From Lactarius indigo (lineage: Eukaryota > Basidiomycota > Agaricomycetes > Russulales > Russulaceae): 64,000 bases of DNA. The translations under genes were made by a program, and so were the position numbers. The first letter of the stretch is position 1; each line of letters begins with the position of its first letter. Location of the stretch: positions 186,001-250,000 of the forward strand of contig JAFKAC010000064.1 in assembly GCA_025766275.1 (NCBI GenBank). The letters run 5' to 3'. This document shows, piece after piece, positions 9,963 through 60,070 of the stretch. Below the pieces are notes generated by a model. It searched no databases, was not told the origin of the DNA, and saw nothing but the letters and a program-made list of their open reading frames with translations.

Positions 9963-12900
9963 TCACCGAAAGTCGCGAGCCGGCCAGTCGCGCTGCTCGT
10001 CCGCGATGCGCTCCAAGGCGGTGGCGCGCTCCAGGCGGTAAATAGCGTCCTGCCTGTCGTCCTGCGCGCATTCGATCATGGCGCGGAGTTGGCTCACCCG
10101 AGCCTGAAGTCGATCCAGCTTGTAGCTGGCCGCGCGGAAGCGCGTGACTTCCGCAGTGAGCGACTCATTGTTGATACGATTGAGCGCGCGGTCGGTGATC
10201 TTGTCCACTTCGAAGACGACAAGGTCCTCGTGCGGATACGTGGGGCGGAGCGTGGCGGAGACGTAAGGCTCGGCGTAGAGGGGCTTACCGTAGACGTGTG
10301 GCGACCCTGGTATGACTCCCAATATGAGGGGGTCCGCCCCTCCAATGATCTGGACGTGCGGCGCATCTCTCTCTACTCTGTCGGGCCCGGTGATGGGGTA
10401 TCGAATGTAATGGGGTCGTCGGTTCGCCCGGAACCCTTCAGGTGCAATGACATGCGCGGGGTCCTCGGCGGCGGTGAACGGACGGTGATCGGCGGCGCCA
10501 GGCACGCGCACACGTCCTTGATACATGGGGGAGCCGTCGGTGTAGACGAGCCAGGGCGTGACGAGGGGATTATGAGGGTCGCGTTTCGTTTGAAGGAAGG
10601 AGTGTCTCGCCGGGTAATAATCTTCGTCGTCATGGCCAGCCTCAGCTGCTGCCATCGCTGCCAATGCTCGCGCATCTCCCTCAGTCGGGCCGCTGCTGAG
10701 TCCAGCTGCTCCTTCTGCCACGCCGCCGCTACCCTCTTCCAGCCCTCCAACTCGTATTCCATCAGCGCTTGAACGCTGGTTGTTGCTTGGGAAAACTCCG
10801 CAAACACCGATGAGGTCGTCGCTTGGGGGGATAGCGGCGATGGGTTCGCGCTCACCGCGATCGTTTCAGAAGACGTGGACAACGGCTCGGTCGTCGTCGG
10901 GAGCGGTTGTCGGGTCTGGGAATCTTGTGACGACGTTGATCCATTCTTGCGCGGTGATGGGCCCCTCTGCTGGTGCAAGAGGTGTCCATGGCGTGAGTTG
11001 AGTGTTGGGAACTTCAGTGTCGTCGTCCTCAGCCAAGAGGGCGCGTGCGTCTTCTGCAAGGGAGTCGAGGAGCTGCGCCTGTGTGACATGTCGCAATGGA
11101 GAAGTGGGCATGAGAGTAATGGCTGAGCGAAGGAGAAGAGGATGACTGTCCTCTGTACAAGCGACCCCCACTTTATCCCTTTTGCTGTGGGCCTATGCTT
11201 CCTGATACAGGCGGAGTGCCTCTGGTGCAAAGACGTCATCTTTGTTAACCCACTGATTCTCCGAGTCAGGGTATCCCTTCCATTTGATGAGGTACTGGAG
11301 GCGTCTTCCCCTGCCAACGTGCCAAGTGTCTAGAATGGCCTCGACTTCGTATTCCTCTTCTCTGTCTATCAATTCGGGCGGTGGTCGTGGGAAATTTTCC
11401 CGTGCAAAGGAGTTTGTTTGTACGGGGTGAGAAGATCGATGTGAAACACTGAGTGGATGCTCCACTGCGTGGGAAGTTCCAATCGATAATTGTAAGGGGA
11501 CATCACCTGTATTACCCGAAAGGGTCCGTGGCGTCGTGCCGCTAATTTCGCCGTTGGTTGATTGGTCCAAAGATGCTTGCCCTCGAGCCACACGAGGTCG
11601 TTGACGCTGAACTTGGGCATATCTTTATTGCGTACCCATGATTCCTGAGCCTTCTTTATAAGGCGTTGGGCGTTGTCTCGAGCTTCTTTCAGCTGCGTTA
11701 GTCGTGCGGTTACGAGGGGAAGCGGGGAAGGCTTATCAGTCCAATCTGCTTGAGGATCATATCCCATGAGAAGGTGAAACGGCAATTGCTTGGTATGTTC
11801 GTGCGGCCAGTTGTTATGTGCGAATTCTGCGATTGGCAGATAAGCAGTCCAGTCGTCTTGACGTCCATTCACCCAGAAGCGCAAATATTGCTCCAACCAT
11901 TGGTTGGTCCTTTCTGACTGTCCGTCCGTGCGCGGGTGATACGCCGTTGATATGTTCTGCTGAATTCCGAGGATTCGGCATGTTTCCCAAACGAACTTTG
12001 ATGTGAAGCGTGGGTCGCGATCACTGATAACTTTGCACGGTAACCCGAAGCGTTTGAAGACGTGAGTTACGTACAGGGCGGCCGTTTCCTCTGCGGTAAT
12101 CTCCTCCTTGCATGGAATGAAGACCGAGGCTTTGCTGCAGTCGTGGTCGGTGACGGTTAGTATGCTGTCGTACCCCTTCGATGAAGGGAGTTTCATGATG
12201 AAGTCCATGGCCACCGTATAAAATGGCGTGGCTTCTAGTGTCGGCGTAATAGGGTGTAGCGCCGCCCGTATGGGTCAAGTGTTCACCTTATTCCGCTGGC
12301 ATTCCGCGCACCCCTGTACGTATTCACATACGTCTCGTCACAGTCGCGGCCACCAGTAGTGTCGTTCCAAGATTCGTTGGGTCCTCGCGATCCCCGGGTG
12401 GCCGTGTATCGGTAGGTCATGATGATCGTGTATTAGTACGCGGTGTGTCGACGCTGGTCCGGTTACCACGAACCTGCCGTCTTTGTACCACTCTCCCTGT
12501 ATCTTTTTGAGTTGATGGGGGTCTACCCACATCTTGATGACTTCTTCGTCTTGCTGATGGCGCGGCCGTTGTAGCTTTGGGTTCACGATAAGGGTGCGCA
12601 CCGCGTTGAGGGTTCTCACAAAGACTTCGGGAGGGAGAACGATGACTTTGCTGTTGTCTTCAACCCCTTGGTCGTAGTCGGGTCGTCTTGATAAGGTGTC
12701 CGCTCTTCCGTTGTTCTTTCCCTTAATGTGGTGAATCTCGAAGTCGTACTCGGATAGCTCGAGTACTTCCCTGGCAACTCATCTACTGATTTTCTGTGGC
12801 GACTTCCAGTACTGTAAATTGAGGTGGTCGGAGTAAATTTTGATTTTGTGTGGGGCTCCCGCAAGTAATGGCCTCCAATTTCTGAGCACTTTGACGATGG

Positions 12901-19337: not shown

Positions 19338-22300
19338 TCACCGAAAGTCTCTCGCCGGCCAATCTTGCTGCTCGTCAGCGATGTGCTCGAGTGCGGTAGC
19401 GCGTTCTAGCTGGTAGATACAGTCTTGCCGGTCGCTCTGGGCGCACGCGATCATGTCGCGGAGCTGCGCTATTCTGGCACGAAGTCGCTCCAGTTCGAAA
19501 CTGGCCGCGCGGTAGCGCGTGACTTCGGCGGTGAGCGATTCGTCGTTGATGCGGTTGAGGGCGCGGTCCGTAATCTTGTCCGCCGCGAAGATGACAAGAT
19601 CTTCGTGGGGGTACGTGGGGCGCAGCGCGGCGTTGACGTGGGGCTCGGCGTAAAGGGGCTTACCGTACAAGTGTGGCGAGCCCGGTATCACTCCCAGTAT
19701 GAGGGGGTCGGCCCCCCCTATGATCCGGACGTGCGACGCGTCCCTCTCTACGCCGTCGGGTCCGGTGATGGGGTATCGAATATAATTGGGTCGTCGGTTT
19801 GCCCTGAACCCCTCAGGCGCAATAACGTGTGCGGGGTCGTCAGCGGCGGTGAAGGGACGGTGGTCGGCGGCGCCCGGTACACGCACACGTCCTCGGTACA
19901 TGGCGGACCCGTCGGAGTTGACGAGCCAGGGCGTGATGCTGGGATTAGCAGGGTCACCTTTCGTTCGAAGGAAGGCGTGGCGTGCCGGGTAGTAATCGTC
20001 GTCGTCATGGCCAGCCTCAGCAGCCTCCATCGCTGCCGCCGCTCTCACATCTCTCTCAGTCGGGCCGCGGCTGAGTCTAACTGTTCCTTCTGCCACTCCG
20101 CCGCTACCCTCCTCCATCCTTCCAACTCGTACTCCAGGAGAGCTTGAACGCTCGTCGTTGCGCGGGAAAATTCCGCGAACGCCGATGAGGTCGTCGCTTG
20201 GAGGGATGGCAGCGATGGGTTCGCGCTCACCTCGTTCGTCTTTGAATACGTGGGCGACGGCGGACTCGTCGTCGGGCTGTTGCGTGGGGTCTGGGAAGCG
20301 GGCAAGCACGTTGGCCCACTCTTGTGCGGTGATGCGGCCCTCTGGTTGGCTGACAGGTGTGTACGGGGTGATTTGGGCGTTGGGAATCTCAGTCTCTTCG
20401 TCGTTGGCGAGGAGAGCCCGAGCGTCTTCTGCAAGGGAGTCGAGGAGGATCGCCTGGGTGACATGTCGCAGAGGGGAAGTCGGCATAAGAGTGGAGATGG
20501 TAGAGCGAAGGAAGAGGGGATGACTCTCCTGAGCGTAGGTGGCTCCCTTCTTAACTGTTACTCCGTGTGCTTGTGCTTCCTGATAAAGGCGGAGCGCCTC
20601 TGGCGCAAAGACGTCTTCCTTGTTGACCCACTGGTTTTCCGAGTCCGGATACCCCTTCCACTTGATGAGATACTGGAGTCGCCGCCTCCTGCCGAAATGC
20701 CGAGAGTCCAGAATGGCCTCAACCTCATATTCTTCCTCCCCATCGATTAGCTCTGGCGGTGGTCGTGTGAAACTTTCCCCATGAAGTGACGTTTGCTTGT
20801 ACGGTGTGAGAAGATCGATGTGGAATACTGGGTGGATGCTCCACTGTGTGGGAAGTTCCAATCGATAATTGTAAGGGGACATCACCTGCGTCACCCGAAA
20901 GGGTCCGTGGCGTCGCGCCGCTAATTTCGCTGTGGGCTGATTGGTGCGAAGATGTTTGCCTTCCAGCCACACAAGGTCTCCAATCTTGAACTTGGGTGTA
21001 TCTTTATTACGGACCCACGCTTCTTGCGCCTTCTTTATGAGTCGTTGGGCGTCCTCTCTAGCTTCTTTTAGCTGCGTCAGTCTTCTTGTGACCTGGGGAA
21101 GGGGAGACGGCTTATCAGTCCAGTCCGCGTGTGGGTTGTATCCCATCAGGAGTTGAAATGGCGATTGCTTCGTATTCTCATGTGGCCAGTTGTTATGCGC
21201 GAATTCGGCGATTGGTAGATAAGCGGCCCAGTTGTCCTGCCGTTCGTTTACCCAAAAGCGCAGATATTGCTCCAACCATTGATTGGTACGCTCGGACTGC
21301 CCGTCGGTTCGTGGGTGATACGCCGTCGATATGTTCTGCTGGATGCCCAAGATACGGCATATTTCTCGGGTGAACTTTGATGCGAACCGAGGATCTCGGT
21401 CACTGATACATTTGCGCGGTAATCCGAAACGTTTGAATACGTGAGCGACGTACAGGGCTGCCGTTTCTTCCGCGGTTATCTCCTCTTGGCATGGGATGAA
21501 GATTGAGGCCTTGCTACAGTCGTGGTCTGTGACAGTTAGTATGCTGTCATGCCCTTTTGACGGCGGGAGCTTGGTGATGAAGTCCATGGCGATCGTCTGG
21601 AAGGGAGTTGCCTCTAATTCCGGCGTAATGGGATGCAATGCGGCCCGTATGGGCCTTGTGTTGACTTTGTTTCGTTGACATTCCGCGCAGCCTTGCACGT
21701 ACTCGTATACGTCTTTCCGCAGTCGTGGCCACCAATAGTGTCGTTCTAAGATTCGTTGTGTCCTCGCGATCCCAGGGTGTCCGTGTATTGGCAGGTCGTG
21801 GTGGTCGTGTATCAGTACTCGGTATACGGATGCCGGCCCGGTTATTACGAACCTGCCATCCTTATACCATTCCCCTTCTATTTTCTTGAGACGATGGGGT
21901 TCGACCCATAGCTTGATCACCTCGTAATCTTGTTGGTGTCGCGGTTGTAGTAGGTTTGGAGTTGCCACGAAGGTTCGTGTGGTGTTGAGAGTTCTCACGA
22001 AGACTTCGGGGGGTAAGACGACAACCTCGCTGTTGTCGCCTATTCCCTGATCGTAGTCCGGGCGTCTTGAAAGAGCGTCTGCCCTACCGTTATTTTTTCC
22101 TTTAATGTGGTGAATCTCGAAGTCATACTCCGAGAGCTCGAGTACTTCCCTGGCTACCCGTCGGCTGATCTTCTGTGGCGACTTCCAGTATTGCAAGTTG
22201 AGGTGATCAGAGTATATTTTGATTTTGTGCGGGGCTCCCGCGAGTAGCGGCCGCCAGTTTCGTAATGCCTTGACTATTGCGAGCAATTCTAGGTCGTAAA

Positions 22301-26671: not shown

Positions 26672-28288
26672 GCGCAAGAAGCATGGGTCCGTAATAAAGA
26701 TACGCCCAAGTTCAAGATTGGAGATCTCGTGTGGCTGGAAGGCAAACATCTCCACACCAATCAGCCCACAGCGAAATTAGCGGCGCGACGCCACGGACCC
26801 TTTCGGGTGACGCAGGTGATGTCCCCTTACAATTATCGATTGGAACTTCCCACGCAGTGGAGCATCCACCCAGTATTCCACATCGATCTTCTCACACCGT
26901 ACAAGCAAACGTCACTTCATGGGGAAAGTTTCACACGACCACCGCCAGAGCTAATCGATGGGGAGGAAGAATATGAGGTTGAGGCCATTCTGGACTCTCG
27001 GCATTTCGGCAGGAGGCGGCGACTCCAGTATCTCATCAAGTGGAAGGGGTATCTGGACTCGGAAAACCAGTGGGTCAACAAAGAAGACGTCTTTGCGCCA
27101 GAGGCGCTCCGCCTTTATCAGGAAGCACAAGCACACGGAGTAACAGTTAAGAAGGGAGCCACCTACACTCAGGCGATCCTCCTCGACTCCCTTGCAGAAG
27201 ACGCTCGGGCTCTCCTCGCCGACGACAAAGAGACTGAGATTCCCAACGCCCAAATCACCCCGTACACACCTGTCGGCCAACCAGAGGGCCGCATCACCGC
27301 ACAAGAGTGGGCCAACGTGCTCGCCCGCTTCCCAGACCCCACGCAACAGCCCGACGACGAGTCCGCCGTCGCCCACGTATTCAAAGACGAGCGAGGTGAG
27401 CGCGAACCCATCGCCGCCATCCCTCCAAGCGACGACCTCATCGGCGTTCGCGGAATTTTCCCGCGCAACGACGAGCGTTCAAGCTCTCCTGGAGTACGAG
27501 TTGGAAGGATGGAGGAGGGTAGCGGCGGAGTGGCAGAAGGAACAGTTAGACTCAGCCGCGGCCTGACTGAGAGAGATGCGAGAGTGGCGGCAGCGATGGA
27601 GGCTGCTGAGGCTGGCCATGACAACGACGATTACTACCCAGCACGCCACGCCTTCCTTCGAACGAAAGGCGACCCTGCTAATCCCAGCATCACGCCCTGG
27701 CTCGTCAACTCCAACGGGTCCGCCATGTACCGAGGACGTGTGCGTGTACCGGGCGCCGCCGACCACCGTCCCTTCACTGCCGCTGACGACCCCGCGCATG
27801 TTATTGCGCCTGAGGGGTTCAGGGCAAACCGACGACCCAATTATATTCGATACCCCATCACCGGACCCGACGGCGTAGAGAGGGACGCGTCGCACGTCCG
27901 GATCATAGGGGGGGCCGACCCCCTCATACTGGGAGTGATACCGGGCTCGCCCCACTTGTACGGTAAGCCCCTTTACGCCGAGCCCCACGTCAACGCCGCG
28001 CTGCGCCCCACGTACCCCCACGAAGATCTCGTCATCTTCGCGGCGGACAAGATTACGGACCGCGCCCTCAACCGCATCAACGACGAATCGCTCACCGCCG
28101 AAGTCACGTGCTACCGCGCGGCCAGTTTCGAACTGGAGCGACTTCGTGCCAGAATAGCGCAGCTCCGCGACATGATCGCGTGCGCCCAGAGTGACCGGCA
28201 AGACTGCATCTACCGGCTAGAACGCGCTACCGCACTCGAGCGCATCGCCGACGAGCAGCGAGATTGGCCGGCGAGAGACTTTCGGTGA
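26672..28288 (+). pseudogene. pol: Gypsy-C pol 3' part
   Basis: Open from the integrase C-terminal region (AQEAWVRNKDTPKFK) through GPF, chromodomain and tail to the stop at 28286-28288. Relative to Gypsy-B it lacks roughly 70 bases near 27172, apparently lost between two short CAGG-type matches. This removes the start of ORF X but keeps the pol frame. By chance the frame is also open leftward through the adjoining LTR to 26558, giving a 576-residue LTR-pol fusion frame. Confidence 0.85.
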
Positions 28289-28846: not shown

Positions 28847-31800
28847 TTCGGCCTCTTTGAACCCACCGTCATGTTCTTTGGCCTCACCAATTCCCCCGCA
28901 ACCTTCCAAGCGATGATGAACCACATCTACCGAGACACGATAGCGAAGCATGAACGCCTCGGAACTACGATACGTGTCTATATGGATGACATCGGCATCA
29001 CTACTCACTTCGATCGTGACCTTGCAGCCCACACCGCAGCAGTGCGTGACGTCCTCCGCGTGGCGGAGGAGCACAATCTGTACTTCAAATTAGAGAAATG
29101 CCTATTTCACCAGCCGCGAATGGATTACCTGGGGGTAATCCTTGAAAGGGGGGTAACTCGCATGGATCCCGTAAAAGTTCAAGGCATCAAAGACTGGCCA
29201 ACACCCACAAAGGTCAAGGATGTTCGATCCTTCCTCGGCTTCTGCAACTTTTACAGACTATTCATTCGCGGCTTCGCCAATCACGCCAAACCACTCACCA
29301 AACTAACGTGAAAAGACGAAGAATGGCGATGGACAAGCGAGGAAGACAAAGCATTCAACACGCTGAAGAGTCTCGTAACTGAAGAACCAGTGCTGGCGCA
29401 TCCGGTGCTTCAAGACCCATTCGAATTAGAAGTTGACGCATCAGGATATGCGGTGGGAGCTGTCCTACTACAGAAAAAGGCTGACGGAAAGCTGCACCCC
29501 ATAGGGTACTACTCCGCGACGCTCTCGGAAGCAGAACGCAACTACGATATTTACGACCTGGAGTTGCTGGCCATCGTCAAAGTGCTCAGAAATTGGAGGC
29601 CATTACTTGCGGGAGCCCCACACAAAATCAAAATTTACTCCGACCACCTCAATTTACAGTACTGGAAGTCGCCACAGAAAATCAGTAGATGAGTTGCCAG
29701 GGAAGTACTCGAGCTATCCGAGTACGACTTCGAGATTCACCACATTAAGGGAAAGAACAACGGAAGAGCGGACACCTTATCAAGACGACCCGACTACGAC
29801 CAAGGGGTTGAAGACAACAGCAAAGTCATCGTTCTCCCTCCCGAAGTCTTTGTGAGAACCCTCAACGCGGTGCGCACCCTTATCGTGAACCCAAAGCTAC
29901 AACGGCCGCGCCATCAGCAAGACGAAGAAGTCATCAAGATGTGGGTAGACCCCCATCAACTCAAAAAGATACAGGGAGAGTGGTACAAAGACGGCAGGTT
30001 CGTGGTAACCGGACCAGCGTCGACACACCGCGTACTAATACACGATCATCATGACCTACCGATACACGGCCACCCGGGGATCGCGAGGACCCAACGAATC
30101 TTGGAACGACACTACTGGTGGCCGCGACTGTGACGAGACGTATGTGAATACGTACAGGGGTGCGCGGAATGCCAGCGGAATAAGGTGAACACTTGACCCA
30201 TACGGGCGGCGCTACACCCTATTACGCCGACACTAGAAGCCACGCCATTTTATACGGTGGCCATGGACTTCATCATGAAACTCCCTTCATCGAAGGGGTA
30301 CGACAGCATACTAACCGTCACCGACCACGACTGCAGCAAAGCCTCGGTCTTCATTCCATGCAAGGAGGAGATTACCGCAGAGGAAACGGCCGCCCTGTAC
30401 GTAACTCACGTCTTCAAACGCTTCGGGTTACCGTGCAAAGTTATCAGTGATCGCGACCCACGCTTCACATCAAAGTTCGTTTGGGAAACATGCCGAATCC
30501 TCGGAATTCAGCAGAACATATCAACGGCGTATCACCCGCGCACGGACGGACAGTCAGAAAGGACCAACCAATGGTTGGAGCAATATTTGCGCTTCTGGGT
30601 GAATGGACGTCAAGACGACTGGACTGCTTATCTGCCAATCGCAGAATTCGCACATAACAACTGGCCGCACGAACATACCAAGCAATTGCCATTTCACCTT
30701 CTCATGGGATATGATCCTCAAGCAGATTGGACTGATAAGCCTTCCCTGCTTCCCCTCGTAACCGCACGACTAACGCAGCTGAAAGAAGCTCGAGACAATG
30801 CCCAACGCCTTATAAAGAAGGCTCAGGAATCATGGGTACGCAATAAAGATATGCCCAAGTTCAGCGTCAACGACCTCGTGTGGCTCGAGGGCAAGCATCT
30901 TTGGACCAATCAACCAACGGCGAAATTAGCGGCACGACGCCACGGACCCTTTCGGGTAATACAGGTGATGTCCCCTTACAATTATCGATTGGAACTTCCC
31001 ATGCAGTGGAGCATCCACTCAGTGTTTCACATCGATCTTCTCACCCCGTACAAACAAACTCCTTTGCACGGGAAAATTTCCCACGACCACCGCCCGAATT
31101 GATAGACAGAGAAGAGGAATACGAAGTCGAGGCCATTCTAGACACTTGGCACGTTGGCAGGGGAAGACGCCTCCAGTACCTCATCAAATGGAAGGGATAC
31201 CCTGACTCGGAGAATCAGTGGGTTAACAAAGATGACGTCTTTGCGCCAGAGGCACTCCGCCTGTATCAGGAAGCATAGGCCCACGGCAAAAGGGATAAAG
31301 TGGGGGTCGCTTGTACAGAGGACAGTCATCCTCTTCTCCTTCGCTCAGCCATTACTCTCATGCCCACTTCTCCATTGCGACATGTCACACAGGCGCAGCT
31401 CCTCGACTCCCTTGCAGAAGACGCACGCGCCCTCTTGGCTGAGGACGACGACACCGAAGTTCCCAACACTCAACTCACACCATGGACACCTCTTGCACCA
31501 GCAGAGGGGCCCATCACCGCGCAAGAATGGATCAACGTCGTCACAAGATTCCCAGACCCGACAACCGCTCCCGACGACGACCAAGCCGTTGTCCACGTCT
31601 TCTGAAACGATCGTGGCGAGCGCGAACCCATCGCCGCTATCCCCCCAAGCGACGACCTCATCGGCGTTTGCGGAGTTTTCCCAAGCAACGACCAGCGTTC
31701 AAGCGCTGATGGAATACGAGTTGGAGGGCTGGAAGAGGGTAGCGGCGGCGTGGCAGAAGGAGCAGCTGGACTCAGCAGCGGCCCGACTGAGGGAGATGCG

Positions 31801-32508
31801 CGAGCATTGGCAGCGATGGCAGCAGCTGAGGCTGGCCATGACGACGAAGATTATTACCCGGCGAGACACTCCTTCCTTCAAATGAAACGCGACCCTCATA
31901 ATCCCCTCGTCACGCCCTGGCTCGTCTACACCGACGGCTCCCCCATGTATCAAGGACATGTGCGCGTGCCTGGCGCCGCCGATCACCGTCCGTTCACCGC
32001 CGCCGAGGACCCCGCGCATGTCATTGCACCTGAAGGGTTCCGGGCGAACCGACGACCCCATTACATTCGATACCCCATCACCGGGCCCGACGGAGTAGAG
32101 AGAGACGCGTCGCACGTCCAGATCATTGGAGGGGCGGACCCCCTCATATTGGGAGTCATACCAGGGTCGCCACACGTCTACGGTAAGCCCCTCTACGCCG
32201 AGCCTTACGTCTCCGCCGCGCTCCGCCCCACGTATCTGCACGAGGACCTTGTTGTCTTCGAAGTGGACAAGATCACCGACCGCGCGCTCAATCGTATCAA
32301 CAATGAGTCGCTCACTGCGGAAGTCACGCGCTTCCGCACGGCCAGCTACAAGCTGGATCGACTTCGGGCTCGGGTGAGCCAACTCCGCGCCATGATCGAA
32401 TGCGCGCAGGACGACAGGCGGGACGCTATTTACCGCCTGGAGCGCGCCACCGCCTTGGAGCGCATCGCGGACGAGCAGCGCGACTGGCCGGCTCACGACT
32501 TTCGGTGA
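28847..32508 (+). pseudogene. pol: Gypsy-D pol 3' part, broken
   Basis: RT (FGLTNSPATF, VYMDDIGI), RNase H, integrase, chromodomain and tail. In-frame stops lie at 29309-29311, 29690-29692, 30131-30133, 30194-30196, 31276-31278 and 31603-31605, and a frameshift near 31070. All of these match lesions in Gypsy-A. ORF X starts at 31382 (MSHRRSSSTP) and ends early at 31885 by a TGA where Gypsy-A has CGA. Confidence 0.9.
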
Positions 32509-36800: not shown

Positions 36801-39705
36801 ACTCATGATCTACCTTGGTAGAGGATCTGGGATGAAGGCTGATGTCTTCATGCACACACCCAATACTTTGTTCTATTCGGACAAAGCACTCTTTGATGAA
36901 GGATTATTTCCTAAGTGTCCTTCTGACAGTGTCAGGAGTAAACCTAAAGGTGTAACTCAGTTAGATGATACAGCTTCAGATGATGAGCTGTCTGTAGACA
37001 ATACCACTCCTGGTGTTGATGATGACCCTCCACCTGAGCCTCCAAAATGGAGAAGCACTCCCCAGCCTGTTGGGCCTGGACCTCCTAGTACATCTACTGG
37101 AGGTACTGGATCGCTGCTACCTCCGCCTTTACCACTGCAACCTGTACCAGGTCCTAGTCAACCTAGGAGAACAGCGTGTACAAGGAAACCCACTTCTTGT
37201 CCAGATAATGTCTATGGAGATAGGCCTCCTACTATGATAATTTGTGACATTGAGTGGACTCGCACATGGTGACAATTGACTGGTGACCAGCCAAGTAGCT
37301 CTCAGTTGCGTTCCCATCAAGATCAGATGGTACCAGGAGATTTTCCTGAGCAACCCGAGTCTGGTCCTTCTAGTGCACCGGGTGATAATCCGCACCTTTC
37401 GGATGATGAAGTAGAGCAACAATTGCTTGCCCGCCTTGCTCAGGAAGGGGGAGTCAAATTTCTAGATCTTCTGCTTGCCAAAGCAGTTTCACCAATAGAT
37501 CTAGATGCACCTGATACCTCTAATATTTGTGAATGGACCTATCGGGACATTCTTAAAATGCCAAGTGACTCTCAGGAGGAGTGGCGTAATGCATGCAAAG
37601 AGGAACTTGCTTCCCTTCGCAATCACAAAGTCTACAAACTTGTTAACCCACTGAAAGGCAGAAAGGTTATCAAGAATCGATGGGTATTTGACTTAAAGTC
37701 AGATGGTCGAAAGAAAGCCAGGCTAGTTGCCAAAGGCTTTTCTCAGGTTGAAGGCATTGATTATGACGAAATATTCTCACCTGTGGTACACTTTGAGACT
37801 GTCTGGATGATGCTCGTGCTTACAGCGCTGAAGGATTGGCACATCTCTGGACTGGACGTCAAAACAGCCTTCCTATATGGAGACCTTGATGAGGAACTCT
37901 ACATGGAACAACCTGAAGGGTTTAAAATCCCTGGCCAACAAAACAAAGTGATACACCTTAGAAAAGCCATCTACGGACTTAAACAAGCTGCTCTTGCTTG
38001 GTGGAGAGCGCTGGATAAATCCATGGGCACTCTAAGTTGTACACGTCTACAATCAGACTCAGGTCTGTTTGTAAATGAGGATAAAACAATTGTAGTAATT
38101 GTCTATGTCGATGATGTCCTCTTCCTCGGGAAACACAAAAAACACATTGATTCCCTGAAGCAGCGCTTCATGAGAATCTGGGAATGCAGAGACCTTGGTG
38201 ATACCAAAGAGTTTCTTTGAATGCACATACTACGTTCTAAAGGTAGAATCCTGATCAATTAGCAGGATTATCTTCAGAAAGTGTTGCAGCGCTTCAAACT
38301 GATTAATGCCAAATCAGTACCCACTCCACTACTGGAAGGGTATCATCCTACCCCTAATAAGGGAACTGCATCTCCAGATCTCCGTGCTTCATACCAACAA
38401 GTGATAGGATCACTCCTATACATTATGATTGGTACGCGACCGGATATTGCCTATGCTGTTACCAAAATGGCGCAGTTTGCTGCCAACCCATCAGAAGACC
38501 ATTTAAAGTGTGCTCTTTACATATGCCGCTACTTACTTGGTACTTCAAACTATGCCTTAGTCTATGACGGCAAGAGTGATGCTGGTATAATAGCATACGC
38601 AGATTCTGACTGGGCTTCAGACCCAGTTACCAGGAAGTCCACTATGGGCTACTTAGTAAAAATTGATGAACAGCAAAGACATAACCAGTACTCACAGAGG
38701 CAAAGAGTCTGTGGTGAGATACTAGTGGCAAGCTGGTTAGCAGCAGAGGGGAATGTCAAGCAGTGAAGTAGAGGGTGTCTGGCACACAAGCAGTGAGAAC
38801 TGATGTTGTTACATTAGAGGGAAGGGAGCTTACCTGGCACACAAGCAGTGAGAACTGATGTGGACCAGGAGCATACATGGTACTCTACTTATACTCCTAC
38901 AGAGGGTGACAGTAGTACAAGGCAAGTAATGCTAGTCACAGAATACAAAGGAGCTATTGTTCTACAAAGGGACAAAAGAGTGGACGCTTTGAGAACAACG
39001 GGAAGGAGAACAAGAAGAGTCCAGAACTAGATGATATCATACTGACATCATAATAAGGATAATACCAAGTAAAGAACAAAGGAAAGTACAAAGGCGTTAT
39101 ACAACGCAGAGTCCGGATGTATGATGTCATAGAAGTACAGTGATGTCATAGATGACGCAATGATAAGTCCAGATTGTACAGATCAAATAGTATCTAATCT
39201 ACAAGTCCTGTATATCTAATCTAAAGCAGTCCATGCTGCAAGTCCGGTCCGTTAGAGCTGCTAAGTGCGCAAGGGTCACTTATCAACAAAAATGGCAAAT
39301 GGAATATTTTGCTGGAATTTGAGAGCACAAAAGTCAATTGCACTCTCATCCACTGAAGCAGAATATATGTCGCTGTGTGATACAAGCAGACAATTGGTTT
39401 GGATACAATCACTCTTTCATGAGCTTGGAATAAATCTAGAACCAATTCCATTATGCGGAGATAATCAAGGCTCCATATTCCTATCTTCTAATCCGGTTCA
39501 AGAAAAACGGATTAAACACATTGATTTATGTCACCACTACATATGTGAAGTAATCCGTGATAAGAAGATAGAGTTATTCTTTATAGAAGGAGCTGAGAAC
39601 CCCGAAGATCTTTTTACTAAGAACCTGGGTTGCATTAAGTTCCTAAAATTCAGGGAACAGCTTGGGCTTGAGTTTTCCTTGCCTACGCAAGCTCAAGCAA
39701 CTTGA
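33815..39705 (+). pseudogene. pol: Copia-E gag-pol
   Basis: Gag begins at 33815 (MSLQLTALVPVFDGSNWAIW); one base is missing near 33885, after which a single frame runs to the end. Order: gag, an RG-rich basic block (about 34570-34640) in place of a zinc knuckle, a roughly 300-residue acidic spacer, protease (WLLDSGASAHF near 35620), GAG-pre-integrase and integrase (35827-37000), RT (37550-38220, YVDDV) and RNase H. In-frame stops are at 35797-35799, 37270-37272 and 38218-38220, with one TAG near 38260. RNase H is split by the solo LTR at 38664-39288; removing it and one TSD copy restores GYLVKMANGIFCW. Confidence 0.9.
38664..39288 (-). mobile_element. Solo LTR (Copia-G family) inside Copia-E
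   Basis: 625 bp, related to the Copia-G 3' LTR at 55951-56566. It is flanked by a perfect TSD AAAAT (38659-38663 and 39289-39293). In element orientation it starts TGTTGATAAGTG and ends TTCATCA. It splits RNase H of Copia-E and so is younger than that element. Confidence 0.95.
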
Positions 39706-40765: not shown

Positions 40766-41220
40766 TGTTACGGTTCTCGTGTTGAGGACCCTTACTGTAC
40801 CGGTTGTGACTACGGCGGTAAGGTAGATTAGTCACGGACTCGGGGTTTACGAAGGAGTTAGGTGTTTACGAATGACTCGATCCTAGTACAGGTAGTAGTA
40901 GTATTAGGATTGCGGTACTTACGCGATACGTTGGACGCTACATTACTGTGACTCATAGCAGCGCTTGAAAGCCTGCTCTTCTTGTATTTAAGGTAGCTGC
41001 GGAAGACCAAGACACGCCATCTTGGTCTTCTTCAATCGTCACTTCTTGTCTCTATCCTCCTTTCGCCTTTGCCGCAGTGAGAGCAGGGCCGCAGTTATAC
41101 TAGTGTCTTCGAACATCTAGACAAAGCCTTCGTGCCATACGCCTTGAGGCGTGACCAGCTAAGTCATCGGAAGTCGCCTTTATCGAGCTCAAGTCGAGCT
41201 AACGCTGTGACGGCGTTACA
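40766..41220 (+). repeat. Gypsy-F 5' LTR
   Basis: 455 bp, TGTTACGG...GCGTTACA. Two blocks (40786-40825 and 40917-40976) are nearly the same in the otherwise different LTRs of Gypsy-A, B, H and the solo LTRs. The TATA box and predicted transcript start are listed separately. Confidence 0.97.
40985..41029 (+). promoter_or_regulatory. Gypsy-F core promoter: TATA box, inverted pair and predicted start
   Basis: TATTTAAG at 40985-40992 is followed 34 nt after its first base by ATCTTGGTCTT (41019-41029), the predicted 5' end of the RNA. A near-perfect inverted copy, AAGACCAAGAC, lies at 41003-41013, so the start site sits beside a DNA inverted repeat. The same spacing is found in Gypsy-H (TATA 62504, start motif 62538). 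Confidence 0.65.
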
Positions 41221-41222
41221 TT

Positions 41223-41233
41223 AAGACCAAGAT
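41223..41233 (+). promoter_or_regulatory. Gypsy-F self-primer binding site
   Basis: AAGACCAAGAT, two bases inside the LTR boundary. It is the exact reverse complement of the 11 bases at 41019-41029. It does not begin with TGG as a tRNA-primed site would. In the Tf1/sushi group the first 11 bases of the RNA fold back onto such a site and serve as primer; the length and position agree. Confidence 0.7.
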
Positions 41234-41241
41234 CATTCATT

Positions 41242-43239
41242 GTGGCGACTGTCAATACCAGAGATCAGTGGACGAACTTCCGTCCCTACTATCTAGACCG
41301 AAGAGGAGATCGCAACGTACCAACTCGATTCCTAGGAGCAGCCAGGTGGAGAGACCGAGGAGACGAGACCGGATACTTTGTAGAGTTCAACGGACCTACA
41401 AGGTTCAGACCTGTTGAGTTCAATTTCGACCACCTGTGTTGGGTAGAGGTTACTTGGAACCCCATAGATCATCGCTGGGACGTTATCAGACCAGCAGGGA
41501 GGCAATACCAGTGCGACATAGACGCACGCGAACTCAATTCACGGGCCGATTGGGGACCTATTGACGGCCAGTTGCAAGAACATTCCACTGGAGAAGCGGT
41601 TAGCGAAGAAACTGAAGAAGAACAAAGTGAGGAAGGACAACCCGCGAGTGTCGGACCAATCGAGCAATATACCATCCAACGAGCTGAGTCCCTACACATC
41701 TCAGAAACCCCAGAAGTCATTCACGTACGATCACCAGCAGCAGAAATGGCGACAACCACTATGATGGCCGAAGAAATCATGGTCGTCAGAGAACAAGCGG
41801 CGCGAGAAGCTGCCGAAGCAATCAGACAAGAGTCACAACGAAACCTCATGCCTATTAACCCTGAAACAGGACATCGCATGACGGCAGATGACGCAGCAAT
41901 TTTTCGGGCTATCGGACCCGACCAAGGAGATCCCCCGTCAGGAGATAGAGCAAGACGAGAACTACCACTAGACCCTCCACCAGGATGGGGAGGGCCACCA
42001 GGGGACGACTTTCCCCGGCGCCCAGGAAGAGGAGGAAACCCGCCTGACCTCCCAAATAACCCACCAGGAGAAGGACCCCCAGGTGGAGGCGGAGGAGGCG
42101 GAGGAGGCGGTGGTGGCGGCGCAGGAGGGGGAGGACATGGACATGAAAAACTAACCGGTGAACCCCCCACCATCTTTGACGGAGACCGTACTAAAGTGGA
42201 TTCGTTCCTCACGCAATGGCACGTATATTGGGGGATGAATCTCGACACCCCCGTCATGCGCAACGACTACCGACGAAGCCTCCTCTTTCTGTCATATATA
42301 AAGGGGGTATCAGTCAGCGAATGGGTACTCTCGTACCTCAAATGGCTCAACCGGCAGATACAACGAGGAATAGATCAACATACACGCGATTTATGGAACG
42401 CGGTAGCGGAGGGGTTTAACCAAAGGTTCGTCAACACCCTCGAACGAGAACAAGCTCAAGCGCTTCTTAGAAAAGGACTCAAGATGGTTGATGGAGATAT
42501 TGACAAGTACGTCAATGAGTTCGAAGAAGCCGCCAGGAAAGCCGGATACCGCCTCAACGACCCCCAAACAATCGATCTCTTCACAAAGGGGTTACCCAAA
42601 AAACTCTACGAGAAAACCTATGATCTGGACGAACCAGAAACGTTCGACGAGTGGAAGCGAGCGACGCTCCGAAGGCAACGTAACTACATCCATATCCGTG
42701 CACGAGTGGATGAGTACAAGGACACCAAACCCAAGAAGACGGGCAACGCCGGGTGGACCGTCCCCCAAAACCTCGCCAACCCATGGGCGATGGACACCTC
42801 CGCAGATCGAACAAAGGCACGACTAGCAGGGTCGGAAGAAATCGACTACAGTAAGCCGCCATATACTGGCCTACCCCCCTTCCCGCCAAGGGGAGGACCG
42901 GGAGCCAGAGGGCGAGGACGGGGAGGGTCACGACGAGACCTAAGGACGGTGTTGTGTTACAACTGCAACGCGCCGGGTCATCTCTCACGAAATTGCCCCC
43001 ATCCCAGACAGCCACGACAATGGCAACCACAAAACCCCGGACCCTCCAATGTTCGGACAACGGAGACCGACTACTACGCGCAAGAGTCCCCACCAGCCCA
43101 GATACAGGCCGCCTCGACCAGCAAAACAGCCGAAGAACGCGCCAAAGAATGGCTTACCGGAGTTGCGAACGCGCCCGACGAAGTAAAAGACCTGATATTG
43201 CAGGATCTGTGGGGGAAAGAGGGTTTTCGGAGCGCCTGA
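41242..43239 (+). CDS. gag: Gypsy-F Gag
   Basis: 665 residues. It opens with VATVNTRDQWTNFRPYYLDR at a GTG with A at -3 and G at +4. No ATG in any frame occurs between the predicted RNA start (41019) and about 41746. Acidic stretch (about 41590-41640), Pro/Gly linker with a Gly run (42084-42135), capsid-like region (FDGDRTKVDSFLTQWHVYW and on, 42174-42720), RG-rich basic segment (42888-42940), one CCHC knuckle with Cys/His codons at 42955, 42964, 42979 and 42994, and a conserved end DLWGKEGF. Role: capsid and RNA packaging. Pol follows in the -1 frame. Confidence 0.92.
   Translation: MATVNTRDQWTNFRPYYLDRRGDRNVPTRFLGAARWRDRGDETGYFVEFNGPTRFRPVEFNFDHLCWVEVTWNPIDHRWDVIRPAGRQYQCDIDARELNSRADWGPIDGQLQEHSTGEAVSEETEEEQSEEGQPASVGPIEQYTIQRAESLHISETPEVIHVRSPAAEMATTTMMAEEIMVVREQAAREAAEAIRQESQRNLMPINPETGHRMTADDAAIFRAIGPDQGDPPSGDRARRELPLDPPPGWGGPPGDDFPRRPGRGGNPPDLPNNPPGEGPPGGGGGGGGGGGGGAGGGGHGHEKLTGEPPTIFDGDRTKVDSFLTQWHVYWGMNLDTPVMRNDYRRSLLFLSYIKGVSVSEWVLSYLKWLNRQIQRGIDQHTRDLWNAVAEGFNQRFVNTLEREQAQALLRKGLKMVDGDIDKYVNEFEEAARKAGYRLNDPQTIDLFTKGLPKKLYEKTYDLDEPETFDEWKRATLRRQRNYIHIRARVDEYKDTKPKKTGNAGWTVPQNLANPWAMDTSADRTKARLAGSEEIDYSKPPYTGLPPFPPRGGPGARGRGRGGSRRDLRTVLCYNCNAPGHLSRNCPHPRQPRQWQPQNPGPSNVRTTETDYYAQESPPAQIQAASTSKTAEERAKEWLTGVANAPDEVKDLILQDLWGKEGFRSA
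43221..43227 (+). promoter_or_regulatory. Putative -1 frameshift heptamer GGGTTTT
   Basis: In the gag frame it reads G GGT TTT, a canonical X XXY YYZ slippery site, four codons before the gag stop. Slipping here enters the pol frame, which is open from 42954. Gypsy-B has the same heptamer at the same place; Gypsy-A has GGATTTT. Confidence 0.55.
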
Positions 43240-46200
43240 ACCCATCGGCCTGGGTGAGGGCTTTAAACTGTAATTCTGTAATCATGACGCGCTTTCGTTC
43301 TCTTCGAATTCCAGTCTCGATTCGCACGAATTACCGAATGGCCGACATAAGAGCGTTGGTGGATTCAGGGGCCACCGACAACTTCATACACCCGAACTTT
43401 ATCAAAAAAATGGGCATAGGGGTCCAGCAATTAAACCAACCACGGAAGGTCTGGAACATAGACAGCACGGAAAACAAAGCTGGGTCCATCACTCACTTCA
43501 CCGACCTAGACGTATACGCCAATGGGTATCACAGAACCATGCGATTCCTCATCACAAATCTTGGGAATGAAGAAATCGTCCTAGGATATCCTTGGCTGGC
43601 AACCTACGAGCCGACCATCAATTGGCGAGATGCGGTCATACATGAAAAGGTTATGCCGGTCGTAATCAGCACGCAGGACAGTCTAGACCGTCATACCATC
43701 ATCGCGACCACTCTAACTAACGACGAAAAGGAAGCAATAACCTCCGAATTAGAAGAAGAAGATACGTACTTGCGAGCAACTACGTCTACAGAACTGGCCA
43801 TTCAAGCGAAAGGGGAGGAGAACCCCGTGGAACTGCCGGCAGTCTACCACGCTTTTCAACAGCTCTTCAGCGAAGAGGCATCACAACGATTCCCCCCTGC
43901 CAGGCCATGGGATCACGCAATAGACTTTAAACCCAACACCCCCTCGGCAATAGACTGCAAGATATACCCGCTAACGCAGGAAGAAGAAGGGAAACTAAAA
44001 GAGTTCTTAGACGAAAAGCTGCAGCAAGGGTATTTAAGACCCTCCATCTCCCCGTACGCATCTTCGTTCTTTTTCGTTAAAAAGAAGGACGGAAAGCTAC
44101 GCCCCGTGCAGGACTATCGTACCATAAATTCGCACACCATACGAAATCAGTACCCACTCCCCCTGATTCAAGACCTCATTTACGACCTCAGCAACGCCCA
44201 CATCTATACGAAGCTCGACATCCGCTGGGGATACAACAACATCCGCATACGGGATGGTGACCAAGAAAAGGCGGCCTTCAAAACCAAGTTTGGCCTTTTT
44301 GAGCCGACGGTCATGTTCTTCGGTCTCACCAACTCGCCGGCCACCTTCCAAACGATGATGAACCATATCTACCGTGACACCATCGCAAAACACGAACTCC
44401 GCGGAACCGTTATCCGCGTCTACATGGACGACATTGGCATAGCCACACGTGAGGGCTCTACATCCGCTGACCACATTGCTGCGGTCACAGATGTTCTCCG
44501 CGTTGCTCAAGAACATGACCTCTATTTCAAGCTCGACAAATGCCTCTTCCATCAACCTCGGATGGATTACCTGGGGGTAATCCTTGAAAGGGGGGTGACG
44601 CGTATGGACCCGGTAAAAGTCCGCGGTATCAGAGACTGGCCAACACCAACTAAGGTCAGGGATGTACGGTCATTCTTGGGCTTTTGCAACTTTTACCGTC
44701 TTTTCATCCGAGGTTTCGCAACCCATGCACGACCACTCAACCGACTAACGAGGAAAGATACCGAGTGGAAGTGGGGAGACGAGGAAGATCGGGCCTTCAA
44801 GACCCTCAAACGACTCGTGACCGAAGAACCGGTGCTAGCGCACCCCAATTTACAAGACCAGTTTGAGCTAGAAGTCGACGCATCAGGATTCGCGGTAGGC
44901 GCAGTACTCCTGCAAAAGAAAAATGACGGTCGCAAGCACCCCATAGGATACTACTCGGCGACGCTAAACGAAGCGGAGCGAAATTACGATATCTACGACC
45001 TAGAACTCCTTGCCATCGTCAAAGCTCTCCGCCACTGGAGACCCCTACTCGCAGGATCTCCACACAAGATCAAAATATTTTCAGATCACCTCAATCTCCA
45101 ATACTGGAAGACCCCACAGAAGATCAGTCGACGGGTCGCCCGAGAAGTACTGGAGTTAATGGAATACGACTTCGAGATCCACCACATCAAAGGGAAGAAT
45201 AATGGAAGAGCGGATGCGCTATCAAGGCGACCAGACTATGACCAAGGAGAAGGAGACAACCAAGGTGTGGTCGTCTTACCTCCAGAGGTATTCGTACGAG
45301 CCACTAACGTTGCGCGTACGCTGGAAATACATCCTATGATGCAACCACCGAGGCGACGACAAGATCCCGCCATAATCAAAGCCTGGGTCGACGCCCATCG
45401 CCTCAAAAAGATAGAAGGAGAATGGTATAAGGACGGACGACTGGTAGTCACGGGACCCATGACGACGTACCGAGCCATCATCCAAGATCACCACGACCCA
45501 CCAGTACACGGACACCCCGGGATAAGTAGGACGCAGCGAATCGTGGAGCGACATCACTGGTGGCCGAACATCCGCCGGGACGTATATGAATACGTTACGG
45601 GGTGTGCTGACTGCCAGCGAAACAAAGTCAATACCAGACCAACTCGGGCCCCATTACACCCAATCACCGCCATCACGGACGCCCCTCCTTTCCATACCAT
45701 CGCCCTTGATTTCATCACTAAACTGCCAGTCTCTCAGTCGTACGATAGCATTCTGACTGTCACCGACCACGACTGTAGCAAGGCGTCCATATTTATCCCA
45801 TGCAACGAGGGAATAACAGCGGAAGAGACCGCCATTCTGTACGTCAATCATGTGTTCAGACGATTCGGGTTACCGCGTAAAATCATCAGTGATCGAGACC
45901 CTCGGTTCACTTCCAAGTTCACACGAGAAGCATGCCGCATACTGGGCATTCAACAGAATATCTCCACAGCCTATCACCCGCGCACGGATGGGCAGTCAGA
46001 ACGGACCAATCAATGGCTGGAGCAGTATCTACGATTCTGGGCCAACGAGCGCCAAGATAACTGGGCAGAGTATCTTCCTATAGCGGAATTCGCTCACAAC
46101 AATTGGCCCCACGAACATACAAAGCAATCGCCATTTATGCTTCTGATGGGGTACAATCCGACGGCTGATTGGACGGATAAGCCCTCCCCAATTCCAAACG

Positions 46201-47960
46201 TGATCACCAGACTGACACAATTAAAGGAGGCGCGTCAACTTGCCCAAGACCTTATCAAAAAGGCACAAGATAGCTGGGTCCGGCACAAAGATACCCCGCG
46301 CTATCAAGTCGGCGATCAGGTGTGGTTAGAAGGAAGGCACTTGCGAACCAATCAGCCCACAGCGAAATTAGCGGCGCGACGCCACGGACCGTTTAGGGTG
46401 GTGCAGGTGATGTCCCCATACAACTACCGGCTTGAACTTCCCACGCAGTGGAGCATCCATCCAGTATTTCACATTGACCTCCTTACGCCCTACAAAACCA
46501 CGGCCCTGCACGGTGAAAACTTCTCACGACCGCCACCGGATCTTGTGGAAGGTGAGGAGGAATACGAAGTTGAGGCCATTCTAGATTCGCGGCATTTCGG
46601 CCGTCGCAAAAAGCTCCAGTACCTCGTCAAGTGGAAGGGTTACCCAGACTCGGAGAACCAGTGGGTCGATAAGGATGACGTCTTCGCACCAGATGCGATC
46701 AAAGCGTATCAAGCGGGCCGGATGGCCGTACGATCCCTTAAAAACCAGCTCGTGAACGACCAAGGAGAGTATCCCTCCTATCTCCGATCCGCTCATACGT
46801 CTATGCCCTCTTCTCCTCTCAGACATGTCACCACGGCGATCCTCCTCGACCAAGTCGCACAAGACGCCGCCAACCTCCTCGAAGACGACGAAGAAACCGT
46901 GGTTCAACAGGTCCAGCTCACTCCGTACACACCTGCAAACCTGCGAGCGGGGCATATCACCGCTCAAGAATGGGCTAATGTCTTACAGAGATTCCCCGAC
47001 CCGACTCACCAGCCCGACGACGAGCAGCAGCATGCCGTCGCTCACATCTTCAGAGACGACAACGGCAATCGAGAACCCGTTGCCATCATCCCCCCAGGGG
47101 ACGACCTCATCGGCACAAGGGGAATTCTCCCTGCCGACCGTCCCCTCGAAGACCCAACAGGAGTTAGAAGCAGCGGAGGACTGGCGGAGGGTGGCGAAGG
47201 AGTGGGCCAACGAACAACTGCGCTTAGCGCAGAGGAGATTGAGCGAGTTGCGGCAGCGCAGGCAGCGCTCCCTAACGACGAGGCTCACGCTGACGACGAG
47301 GATTACTACCCGGTCAGACACCCCCTCCTTCGAACGCACAGCCACCCTACTAATCCCCGAATCACCCCATGGCTCGTCCACACCGACGGGACCCCCATGT
47401 CTCGAGGACGTGTGCGATTGCCCGGCGTCGCACTTCACACCCCCATCACGCACGACGACGACCCGGCGCAGGTCCTTGCGCCTGAAGGGTTCAGGGCGAA
47501 TCGACAGCCCCATTACATTCACTTCCCCATCACCGGGCCCGATGGCATAGAGAGGAATGCCAGTCACATTCAGATTGTCGGAGGTGCGAATCCCTTTGTA
47601 TTGGGACTCATCCCGGGTTCCCCCTATCTCTACGGCAAACCTCTCTACGCCTTCCCGATGCTATCGGCCGCGGGACGCGCCTTCATCGCCCACGAGGATC
47701 TAGTCATCCTCGCCGCCGACAGGATCACCGACCGTGCACTGAACCGCATCGGGGACGAGTCCCTGACTGCGGAGGTGACGCGTTATCGAGCAGCCACGTA
47801 CGAAGAAGAACGGCTCGCGGCTCGCATTCGCCAGCTTCAGGCAATGCGACTGTCGGCCAGGGACGACAAGCGGGATTGCATCTACCGCTTGGAGAGGGCC
47901 AACGTTTTCGAGAGGATTAGCGACGAGCAGTCCACGTGGACGGCGCGAGATTTTCGGTGA
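43226..47960 (+). CDS. pol: Gypsy-F Pol (protease, RT, RNase H, integrase, chromodomain, long tail)
   Basis: About 1577 residues downstream of the presumed frameshift; the open frame extends from 42954. Protease Asp codon at 43362 (DSGATDNF). RT YMDD at 44421-44432. RNase H first Asp at 44877. Integrase HHCC (first His near 45490, Cys codons 45603 and 45612); catalytic Asp 45708, Asp 45891, Glu 45999, spaced as DD35E; GPF motif near 46385. Chromodomain about 46554-46683 with the aromatic pattern YEVEAIL...LQYLVKWKGY, which in chromoviruses steers integration to modified histones. A tail of about 415 residues follows (46700-47960), unusually long, ending in a Glu/Arg-rich coiled-coil-like stretch and TARDFR. 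Confidence 0.95.
46825..47550 (+). CDS. ORF X of Gypsy-F (overprinted +1 frame inside pol tail)
   Basis: 241 residues starting at an ATG (MSPRRSSSTKSHK). It is in the +1 frame of pol, as in Gypsy-A, B and D, where the start is also MS(P/H)RRSSST. The N-terminal half is basic and Ser/Thr/Pro-rich. A probable helix follows (EDWRRVAKEWANEQL, then RRLSELRQRRQRS), then ITTRSDTPSFERTATLLIPE, then a Cys-containing PPCLEDVCDC segment. Around the helix the X frame is more alike between families than the pol frame. How it would be translated is unknown. It might also be reached from pol by frameshifting. Confidence 0.5.
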   Translation: MSPRRSSSTKSHKTPPTSSKTTKKPWFNRSSSLRTHLQTCERGISPLKNGLMSYRDSPTRLTSPTTSSSMPSLTSSETTTAIENPLPSSPQGTTSSAQGEFSLPTVPSKTQQELEAAEDWRRVAKEWANEQLRLAQRRLSELRQRRQRSLTTRLTLTTRITTRSDTPSFERTATLLIPESPHGSSTPTGPPCLEDVCDCPASHFTPPSRTTTTRRRSLRLKGSGRIDSPITFTSPSPGPMA

Positions 47961-47979
47961 GTCTGGGGACTCACGCTAC

Positions 47980-47990
47980 GAAGGGGGTGG
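47980..47990 (+). promoter_or_regulatory. Gypsy-F polypurine tract
   Basis: GAAGGGGGTGG directly before the 3' LTR. Confidence 0.8.
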
Positions 47991-48445
47991 TGTTACGGTT
48001 CTCGTGTTGAGGACCCTTACTGTACCGGTTGTGACTACGGCGGTAAGGTAGATTAGTCACGGACTCGGGGTTTACGAAGGAGTTAGGTGTTTACGAATGA
48101 CTCGATCCTAGTACAGGTAGTAGTAGTATTAGGATTGCGGTACTTACGCGATACGTTGGACGCTACATTACTGTGACTCATAGCAGCGCTTGAAAGCCTG
48201 CTCTTCTTGTATTTAAGGTAGCTGCGGAAGACCAAGACACGCCATCTTGGTCTTCTTCAATCGTCACTTCTTGTCTCTATCCTCCTTTCGCCTTTGCCGC
48301 AGTGAGAGCAGGGCCGCAGTTATACTAGTGTCTTCGAACATCTAGACAAAGCCTTCGTGCCATACGCCTTGAGGCGTGACCAGCTAAGTCATCGGAAGTC
48401 GCCTTTATCGAGCTCAAGTCGAGCTAACGCTGTGACGGCGTTACA
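47991..48445 (+). repeat. Gypsy-F 3' LTR
   Basis: 455 bp; I see no difference from the 5' LTR. Followed by TSD CATAC. Confidence 0.97.
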
Positions 48446-58685: not shown

Positions 58686-58699
58686 GGCCTCTGCATAAG

Positions 58700-60067: not shown

Positions 60068-60070
60068 GCG

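Follow-up and report, generated by a model that had tools for sequence, protein, structure and literature searches.

Behind the integrase chromodomain, the pol gene of a Ty3/Gypsy chromovirus of Lactarius indigo is overlapped by a second open reading frame, termed ORF X, which is shifted by +1 relative to pol. The question raised by this locus is whether X encodes a protein of its own, or whether the frame is a by-product of pol or of some other signal in the same DNA. Several copies of the frame lie in the window, i.e. the whole stretch of 64,000 nt that was analysed, and further ones were taken from the same genome. Based on the variation within families and the conservation between them, X is almost certainly an overlapping gene that is coding and under selection.

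The host element and its copies of ORF X

A summary of the features is given in Table 1. The element of family F extends from LTR to LTR over about 40766-48290. By its LTRs, gag, a pol with the order PR-RT-RH-INT and the C-terminal chromodomain it fits the definition of a chromovirus, and its pol continues for a tail of about 415 aa after the chromodomain. Codon positions 1, 2 and 3 of X correspond to positions 2, 3 and 1 of pol, the wobble base of X being the first base of a pol codon. Apart from the chromoviruses, the window contains two Copia-type elements at 33898-38220 and 57312-61486 with RVT_2, rve, copia-type gag and Pol_BBD, both split over several ORFs.

Table 1. Coordinates of the family-F element, of ORF X and of its copies in the window
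Feature	Positions	Strand	Remarks
5' LTR of family-F element	40766..41065	+	300-nt direct repeat, 100% identical to 47991-48290
gag ORF	41242..43239	+	Retrotrans_gag, CCHC knuckle
pol ORF	42954..47960	+	1668 aa; protease, RT, RNase H, integrase, SH3-like, chromodomain, long tail (Pfam)
Chromodomain, pol residues 1204-1253	46563..46712	+	Pfam PF00385, E 9.5e-14
AUG1, pol-frame ATG	46803..46805	+	weak context (pyrimidine at -3); ATG in 29/29 F copies
ORF X, overprinted gene	46825..47550	+	ATG to TAG, 241 codons plus TAG, +1 to pol
X residues 109-151, conserved amphipathic helix	47149..47277	+	W..(V/T)A..W..EQL..A..R; AlphaFold2 helix; sliding z
X C-terminal motif	47485..47541	+	(K/R)GS(G/S)..(D/E).PI.F.S.S.SP; sliding z; alignment
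Pol-only tail end, predicted ordered C-terminal part	47551..47957	+	pol third-position variability 83/136; structure model
3' LTR of family-F element	47991..48290	+	100% identical to 5' LTR
X in copy A1	10373..11089	-	238 aa
X in copy B	19748..20464	-	one internal TGA
X remnant in copy D	27171..27878	+	ATG deleted, one TGA
X in copy A2	31382..32098	+	one internal TGA

The initial annotation had assigned a second frame beginning with an ATG to each of the families A, B, D and F. This holds for F and for copy A1 and fails for D, where the ATG is gone through a deletion and the frame begins at RRSSST. The length of about 240 codons proposed for undamaged frames agrees with 241 aa at 46825-47550 and 238 aa at 11089-10373 on the reverse strand. 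Copies A1, B and D extend over 11354-9963, 20732-19338 and 26969-28288, respectively, with the assignment of letters to copies being our own. Of 27 distinct F copies fetched, 26 carry an undamaged X of 241 aa, and the TGA codons in the X frame of B, D and A2 are accordingly read as damage of single copies. The pol tail is intact in 24 of the 27, and both the ATG and the TAG of X are present in all 29 F copies (29/29). TGA accounts for most stops in the damaged related copies listed genome-wide, which is what C-to-T changes at CGA codons would produce in the course of methylation or a RIP-like decay.

Variation within families F and L050

A site was counted as variable if at least two copies carried a minor base. 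The first run comprised 29 distinct F copies out of the 30 loci L017-L046, including the window's own copy, and 26 rows of the more distant L050 family. For the cleaned F set (26 tail-distinct copies) three tail-identical copies and one short match were left out. The cleaned L050 set of 24 copies is without the partial rows L065, L075 (other lineage) and L074, which all end before or early in X, and moreover without one tail-identical copy and the rows L067 and L072, whose identity is below 86%. The partial rows had raised the variability before X in the first L050 count; the cleaned result stands.

In the 26 F copies, third positions of pol, which are the second positions of X, are variable at 42/242 sites inside X vs 452/711 outside (Fisher p=4e-37; as the copies share descent, this and the following Fisher p-values overstate independence and are descriptive, and all DNA stems from one genome). 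The outer sites divide into 369/575 before and 83/136 after X. The same picture is obtained with four-fold sites only (20/133 inside vs 226/345 outside) and in the first run with 29 copies (44/242 vs 453/711). First positions of pol show no significant difference, being variable at 28/242 sites inside X vs 76/710 outside. Gene conversion that recently swept across X in F was considered as well and rejected, because the first positions of pol are not reduced there.

The 24 copies of the L050 family are variable at 54/267 third positions of pol inside X vs 372/538 outside (p=1e-40), the latter consisting of 279/420 before and 93/118 after X; a comparison with the sites after X alone yields p=1e-27. 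First positions of pol, hence the wobble positions of X, are raised in this family (73/267 inside vs 58/538 outside, p=7e-9). Changes at the X wobble are synonymous in X in 113 cases and not so in 3, with 1084:440 possible (p=5e-13). Restricted to transversions the ratio is 29:2 vs 599:417 possible (p=2e-5; F alone 9:1, p=0.08). Sorted by their effect on pol and X, in this order, the variants in F amount to NN 9, SN 44, NS 27 and SS 4, and the possible transitions to 218, 235, 221 and 4.

The shift in variability in F occurs within about 20 nt of both the ATG and the stop of X. In the L050 family constraint sets in within about 60 nt of the X ATG, with less constraint at the first 20 X codons (9/20 third positions variable) and over about the last 140 nt. 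Excess constraint in the X frame, proposed in the initial annotation as a check, is thereby found to be strong and to cover nearly the whole length of X within two families. Random stops of X in other copies had been named as a point against it; in the X span of 27 distinct F copies 1 new stop falls into X and 46 into the third frame, while the pol frame has acquired 4.

Overlapping conserved RNA elements likewise reduce synonymous diversity, and the conserved stretch could in principle be a signal in RNA or DNA (packaging, splicing, targeting) instead of a protein-coding frame. We consider this extremely unlikely: the drop is confined to pol third positions, first positions being unchanged in F and raised in L050; X third positions change almost always without altering the X residue (113:3); and the X proteins can be aligned between lineages.

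Conservation of both frames between deep lineages

The same X-frame segment is contained in all 30 loci fetched from more distant pol-tail families of this genome (L047-L076). Examples are EWKETAARWQREQLHIAACRRRMMKERREYW in L050, QWKETARKWQDEQLHLAEMRRKARKARQRYW in L065 and DWRRVAKEWANEQLRLAQRRLSELRQR in F. Over this segment the pol residues are Gly/Ala/acid-rich, poorly conserved and hardly alignable between lineages. An X identity of about one half over 37 positions had been estimated by eye beforehand. In a block of 57 codons, F and the A-like copy L077 share 49% of the X residues and 43% of the pol residues, F and B 54% and 40%.

Six representatives were chosen for closer comparison, namely F, L077, B, L065, L072 and L050. 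In the pol-only null each pol protein was held fixed and synonymous codons were redrawn in 2000 runs. The X similarity between clades in the 57-codon block is +1.70 BLOSUM per site vs an expected -0.03 +/- 0.13, a value reached in 0/2000 runs. In the converse null, with the X proteins fixed, pol is open with a probability of 0.08-0.18 per lineage and in all six lineages in 0/2000 runs. In fact pol is open across the block in 5/6 representatives, L077 having one TGA, and is open there in A1 and A2 of the window. The pol similarity exceeds the X-fixed null too (+0.88 vs +0.30 +/- 0.12). Taken with the openness of pol, this means that both frames matter. Given pol, an X frame open from ATG to stop has a chance of 0.4-1.2% per lineage under the usage null and of 0-2.6% under the shuffle null; X is open in 5/6 representatives, the exception being B with one TGA. 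A mere chance ORF is thus ruled out by the similarity beyond the pol-only null, by the openness of X and by the drop in pol third positions.

Applied in a sliding manner, the pol-only null locates the strongest X signal at 47163-47252 (z +9.7 to +11.6). Towards the C-terminus z reaches +6.4 at 47463-47522 and +7.7 at 47493-47552. Outside X the values range from -1.7 to +3.2, which shows the null to lie a little too low. Before about 47073 the X excess between deep lineages is weak (z -1.8 to +3.5). The second conserved patch at the X C-terminus sits in a stretch where pol is well conserved itself. The constraint on X is wider than the 37-residue patch noted first. With the X protein of L065 as query against the genome, the matches to other lineages have 37-45% identity and E values of 6e-28 to 6e-22 and for the most part cover residues 25-230. 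Among the matches listed, 63/72 rows are without stop and 9 contain a TGA (hand count).

The initial annotation had offered as an alternative that it is pol that briefly passes into the X frame. This could happen by two introns or two compensating frameshifts, and the helix would then be a part of pol and X no separate gene. The strongest constraint on X between lineages is indeed local, being placed at the helix between flanks conserved in pol, and the pol residues at the helix are Gly/Ala/acid-rich and poorly conserved. Nevertheless pol is kept open over the helix, in 5/6 lineages where the chance is 8-18% for each and 0/2000 for all six. Moreover, in two families almost all of X between its ATG and its stop is constrained, with an onset far 5' of the helix, the second X-frame patch falls within well-conserved pol, and splice signals common to the lineages are not seen by eye. 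We therefore disfavour this alternative and regard it as very unlikely. The reading of X as an overlapping accessory gene, in turn, is supported, as the constraint on the X frame is strong and the pol frame is kept open as well.

An antisense ORF of 194 codons over 46983-47567 brings up a further reading, in which the antisense strand carries a gene whose codons line up with those of pol and whose wobble falls on the same base. Its probability is negligible. Each of the six lineages has 1-5 antisense stops over the X span, whereas sense X has none but the one TGA in B, and, averaged over the 15 pairs of lineages, the similarity amounts to +2.18 BLOSUM per site for X vs +1.03 to +1.50 for the three antisense frames.

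Comparison of copies A1 and B

A swap of conservation between the two frames in the middle of X had been described at the outset, and it is recovered in the comparison of A1 and B. In 47110-47259 (F coordinates) the substitutions number 16 at pol first, 3 at pol second and 5 at pol third positions of 49 codons each, whereas pol third positions are the fastest in most of the flanking windows. Read from the substitutions alone, 47110-47259 has the pattern of a segment in which X, and not pol, is under selection.

The reduction of third-position variability between A1 and B is pronounced at the X helix (8/63, p=4e-5) and weak in the middle of X (13/54, p=0.03). The C-terminal motif alone gives no significant reduction (9/29, p=0.42). 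In the N-terminal part of X the reduction is absent, with 37/93 inside vs 90/224 outside (p=1). Hence the N-terminal part evolves freely between some families, while it is constrained within F and L050. We read it as a disordered, Ser/Thr/Pro/Arg-rich arm whose constraint may be lineage-specific, a reading with which the data are compatible but which they do not prove.

This behaviour of the N-terminal part, together with the weak excess before about 47073 between deep lineages, would also suit a pol-X fusion, generated by a +1 (or -2) shift of the ribosome some way before the helix and ending at the X stop. However, the onset of constraint lies within about 20 nt (F) and 60 nt (L050) of the X ATG and roughly 300 nt 5' of the helix, and the X ATG is found in 6/6 lineages and in 29/29 F copies. 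As the constraint starts near the X ATG, such a frameshift fusion is less likely, and we hold it to be improbable.

Taken together, and judged by these comparisons of sequences, the locus has the sequence hallmarks of a dual-coding gene: pol and X each encode protein here and are each held by purifying selection, with X constrained over nearly its whole length within F and L050, and the central helix and the C-terminal motif are conserved between deep lineages.

Predicted properties of X and of the pol tail

The X proteins are basic and hydrophilic, with a pI of 9.6-10.9, a Ser/Thr/Pro content of 35-43% and a GRAVY of -0.69 to -1.05, and no hydrophobic run, such as the membrane segment of an Env-like or FAST-like third ORF, is visible by eye in the X alignment. 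The AlphaFold2 model of X consists of one helix at residues 109-151, with block mean pLDDT values of 85-96 over residues 111-140; at 121/241 residues the pLDDT is below 50. In the model of the pol tail (mean pLDDT 58.8) the residues derived from the same DNA have block means of 26-47, and the C-terminus is better ordered. According to these models, the X helix is predicted to be ordered where the overlapping pol tail is modelled lowest, which is the order-disorder trade-off expected of dual coding. The second conserved element of X can also be written GSG..(D/E)DPITF.S.S.SP and is situated shortly 5' of the X stop. In one A-like copy (L078, G000:C239:61100-61650) the X helix contains an in-frame tandem duplication, QLDSAAARLREMRKRRQRWR being repeated, with both frames open across it.

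Relatives of X were searched in several ways. Neither the X protein nor an 11-row X alignment gave a hit at E<=10 in a set of 5.8 billion proteins, in a search that needs shared 5-residue words. Pfam has no family for the X protein of F, the best of 11 X members giving E 0.15, and no solved structure in the PDB matches X (best E 1.8). In these three collections, i.e. protein set, Pfam and PDB, the searches gave no homologue of X beyond the elements of this genome itself.

The pol tail itself (46803-47957) has homologues among the database proteins P0006-P0042, and neither a Pfam family nor a confident fold match was assigned to it. A search against viral contigs gave no relative of the tail, and Foldseek of the tail model against PDB and BFVD gave nothing at E<=0.001. 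The tail after the chromodomain is possibly a conserved domain that has not been described.

In summary X is very probably the gene of an accessory protein of a fungal chromovirus clade, overprinted in +1 on the predicted disordered middle of the pol tail. As to its function, we tentatively propose that X would be a mostly disordered protein in which the helix pairs with itself or a partner and the C-terminal motif docks, thereby aiding the element cycle in assembly, trafficking or regulation; we rate this proposal at somewhat less than an even chance.

Start codons and putative expression

In 6/6 lineages the X ATG is found at -110 to -128 codons from the Trp of the helix, and a pol-frame ATG precedes it by 10-22 nt, with a pyrimidine at -3 in 6/6. 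The X AUG has a purine at -3 in 5/6 lineages, L065 having a C. Among the loci L047-L076 a pol-frame ATG is placed at -19, -13 or -10 from the X ATG in 29/30. The next ATG 5' of AUG1 is 46-242 nt away in the six lineages. In several distant pol tails, available as protein only, Met-Ser or Met-Thr is seen by eye at about the same place, within a variable linker. It is possible that AUG1 starts a separate pol-tail protein.

In Sendai virus P/C and influenza PB1-F2, which are overprinted genes of viruses, a second AUG stands near a weaker first one and the product is disordered. For X, translation from its own AUG comes close to an even chance. On a 3'-terminal mRNA, ribosomes starting at the first AUG would make the pol-tail protein and those scanning past it would make X, a scheme suggested by the pyrimidine at -3 of the upstream AUG (6/6) and the purine at the X AUG (5/6). 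We regard leaky scanning on a 3' mRNA as a plausible but unproven mechanism, with chances just short of even. A 3' splice site common to the six lineages was not seen by eye.

A gene model of L. indigo (P0003) resembled at first a spliced gag-to-tail message but is not taken as evidence of splicing, since its N-terminus does not match the gag of the window and residues 249-575 alone are found among the genome matches listed, in C61 as elsewhere. In P0003 an N-terminus of unplaced origin is joined to the F pol tail, which begins near residue 249. Either the gene model is chimeric or the tail has been co-opted.

Comparison to known accessory genes

Elements of the Drosophila MDG1 group of Ty3/Gypsy carry the accessory genes sORF1 and sORF2, as far as the accessible part of the report goes (PMC11952523). 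According to the same text these resemble X in that a Metaviridae element encodes small proteins in addition to gag and pol and that a helix is a main predicted feature, but sORF2 is a transmembrane protein, whereas X is hydrophilic, basic and lies wholly inside pol in another frame; an overlap of the sORFs with pol is not mentioned in that part (PMC11952523). In the accessible portions of two further reports, bdelloid LTR retrotransposons have ORF3s downstream of pol that include acquired env, GDSL and DEDDy domains (PMC5408684), and BcGypsy1 of Botrytis has an additional ORF, brtn (PMC8365987). From what these portions describe, both are like X a lineage-specific extra gene in an LTR element, and in contrast to both X is overprinted on pol and no relatives of it were found (PMC5408684, PMC8365987). 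The accessible text on fungal and other LTR elements contains no mention of an overprinted gene in the pol tail (PMC3248453, PMC2774666). Overprinted accessory genes are known from viruses and, in the passages accessible, share with X the second frame on an older gene (PMC8227390, PMC6195259). A sequence relation of X to the viral genes was not found. Judged by titles and the opening lines of abstracts, the open-access literature searched gave no overlapping gene for the pol tail of a chromovirus or another LTR retrotransposon; where extra genes of LTR retrotransposons are described there, they consist of captured domains or of small ORFs that accompany gag and pol.

In our view the chances are even that a chromovirus clade has gained a protein family de novo by overprinting its pol tail and kept it through deep divergence, with the pol-tail protein and X made from one 3' mRNA by leaky scanning, resulting in an accessory gene like those of complex retroviruses that would have no captured ancestor. 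If true, chromoviruses would resemble complex viruses in that they also build accessory proteins out of sequence they already have. An annotation that ends at pol would miss such genes, and the scan for synonymous diversity can be used on any high-copy element. X would then offer a candidate, open to assay, for the means by which fungal retrotransposons attain high copy numbers.
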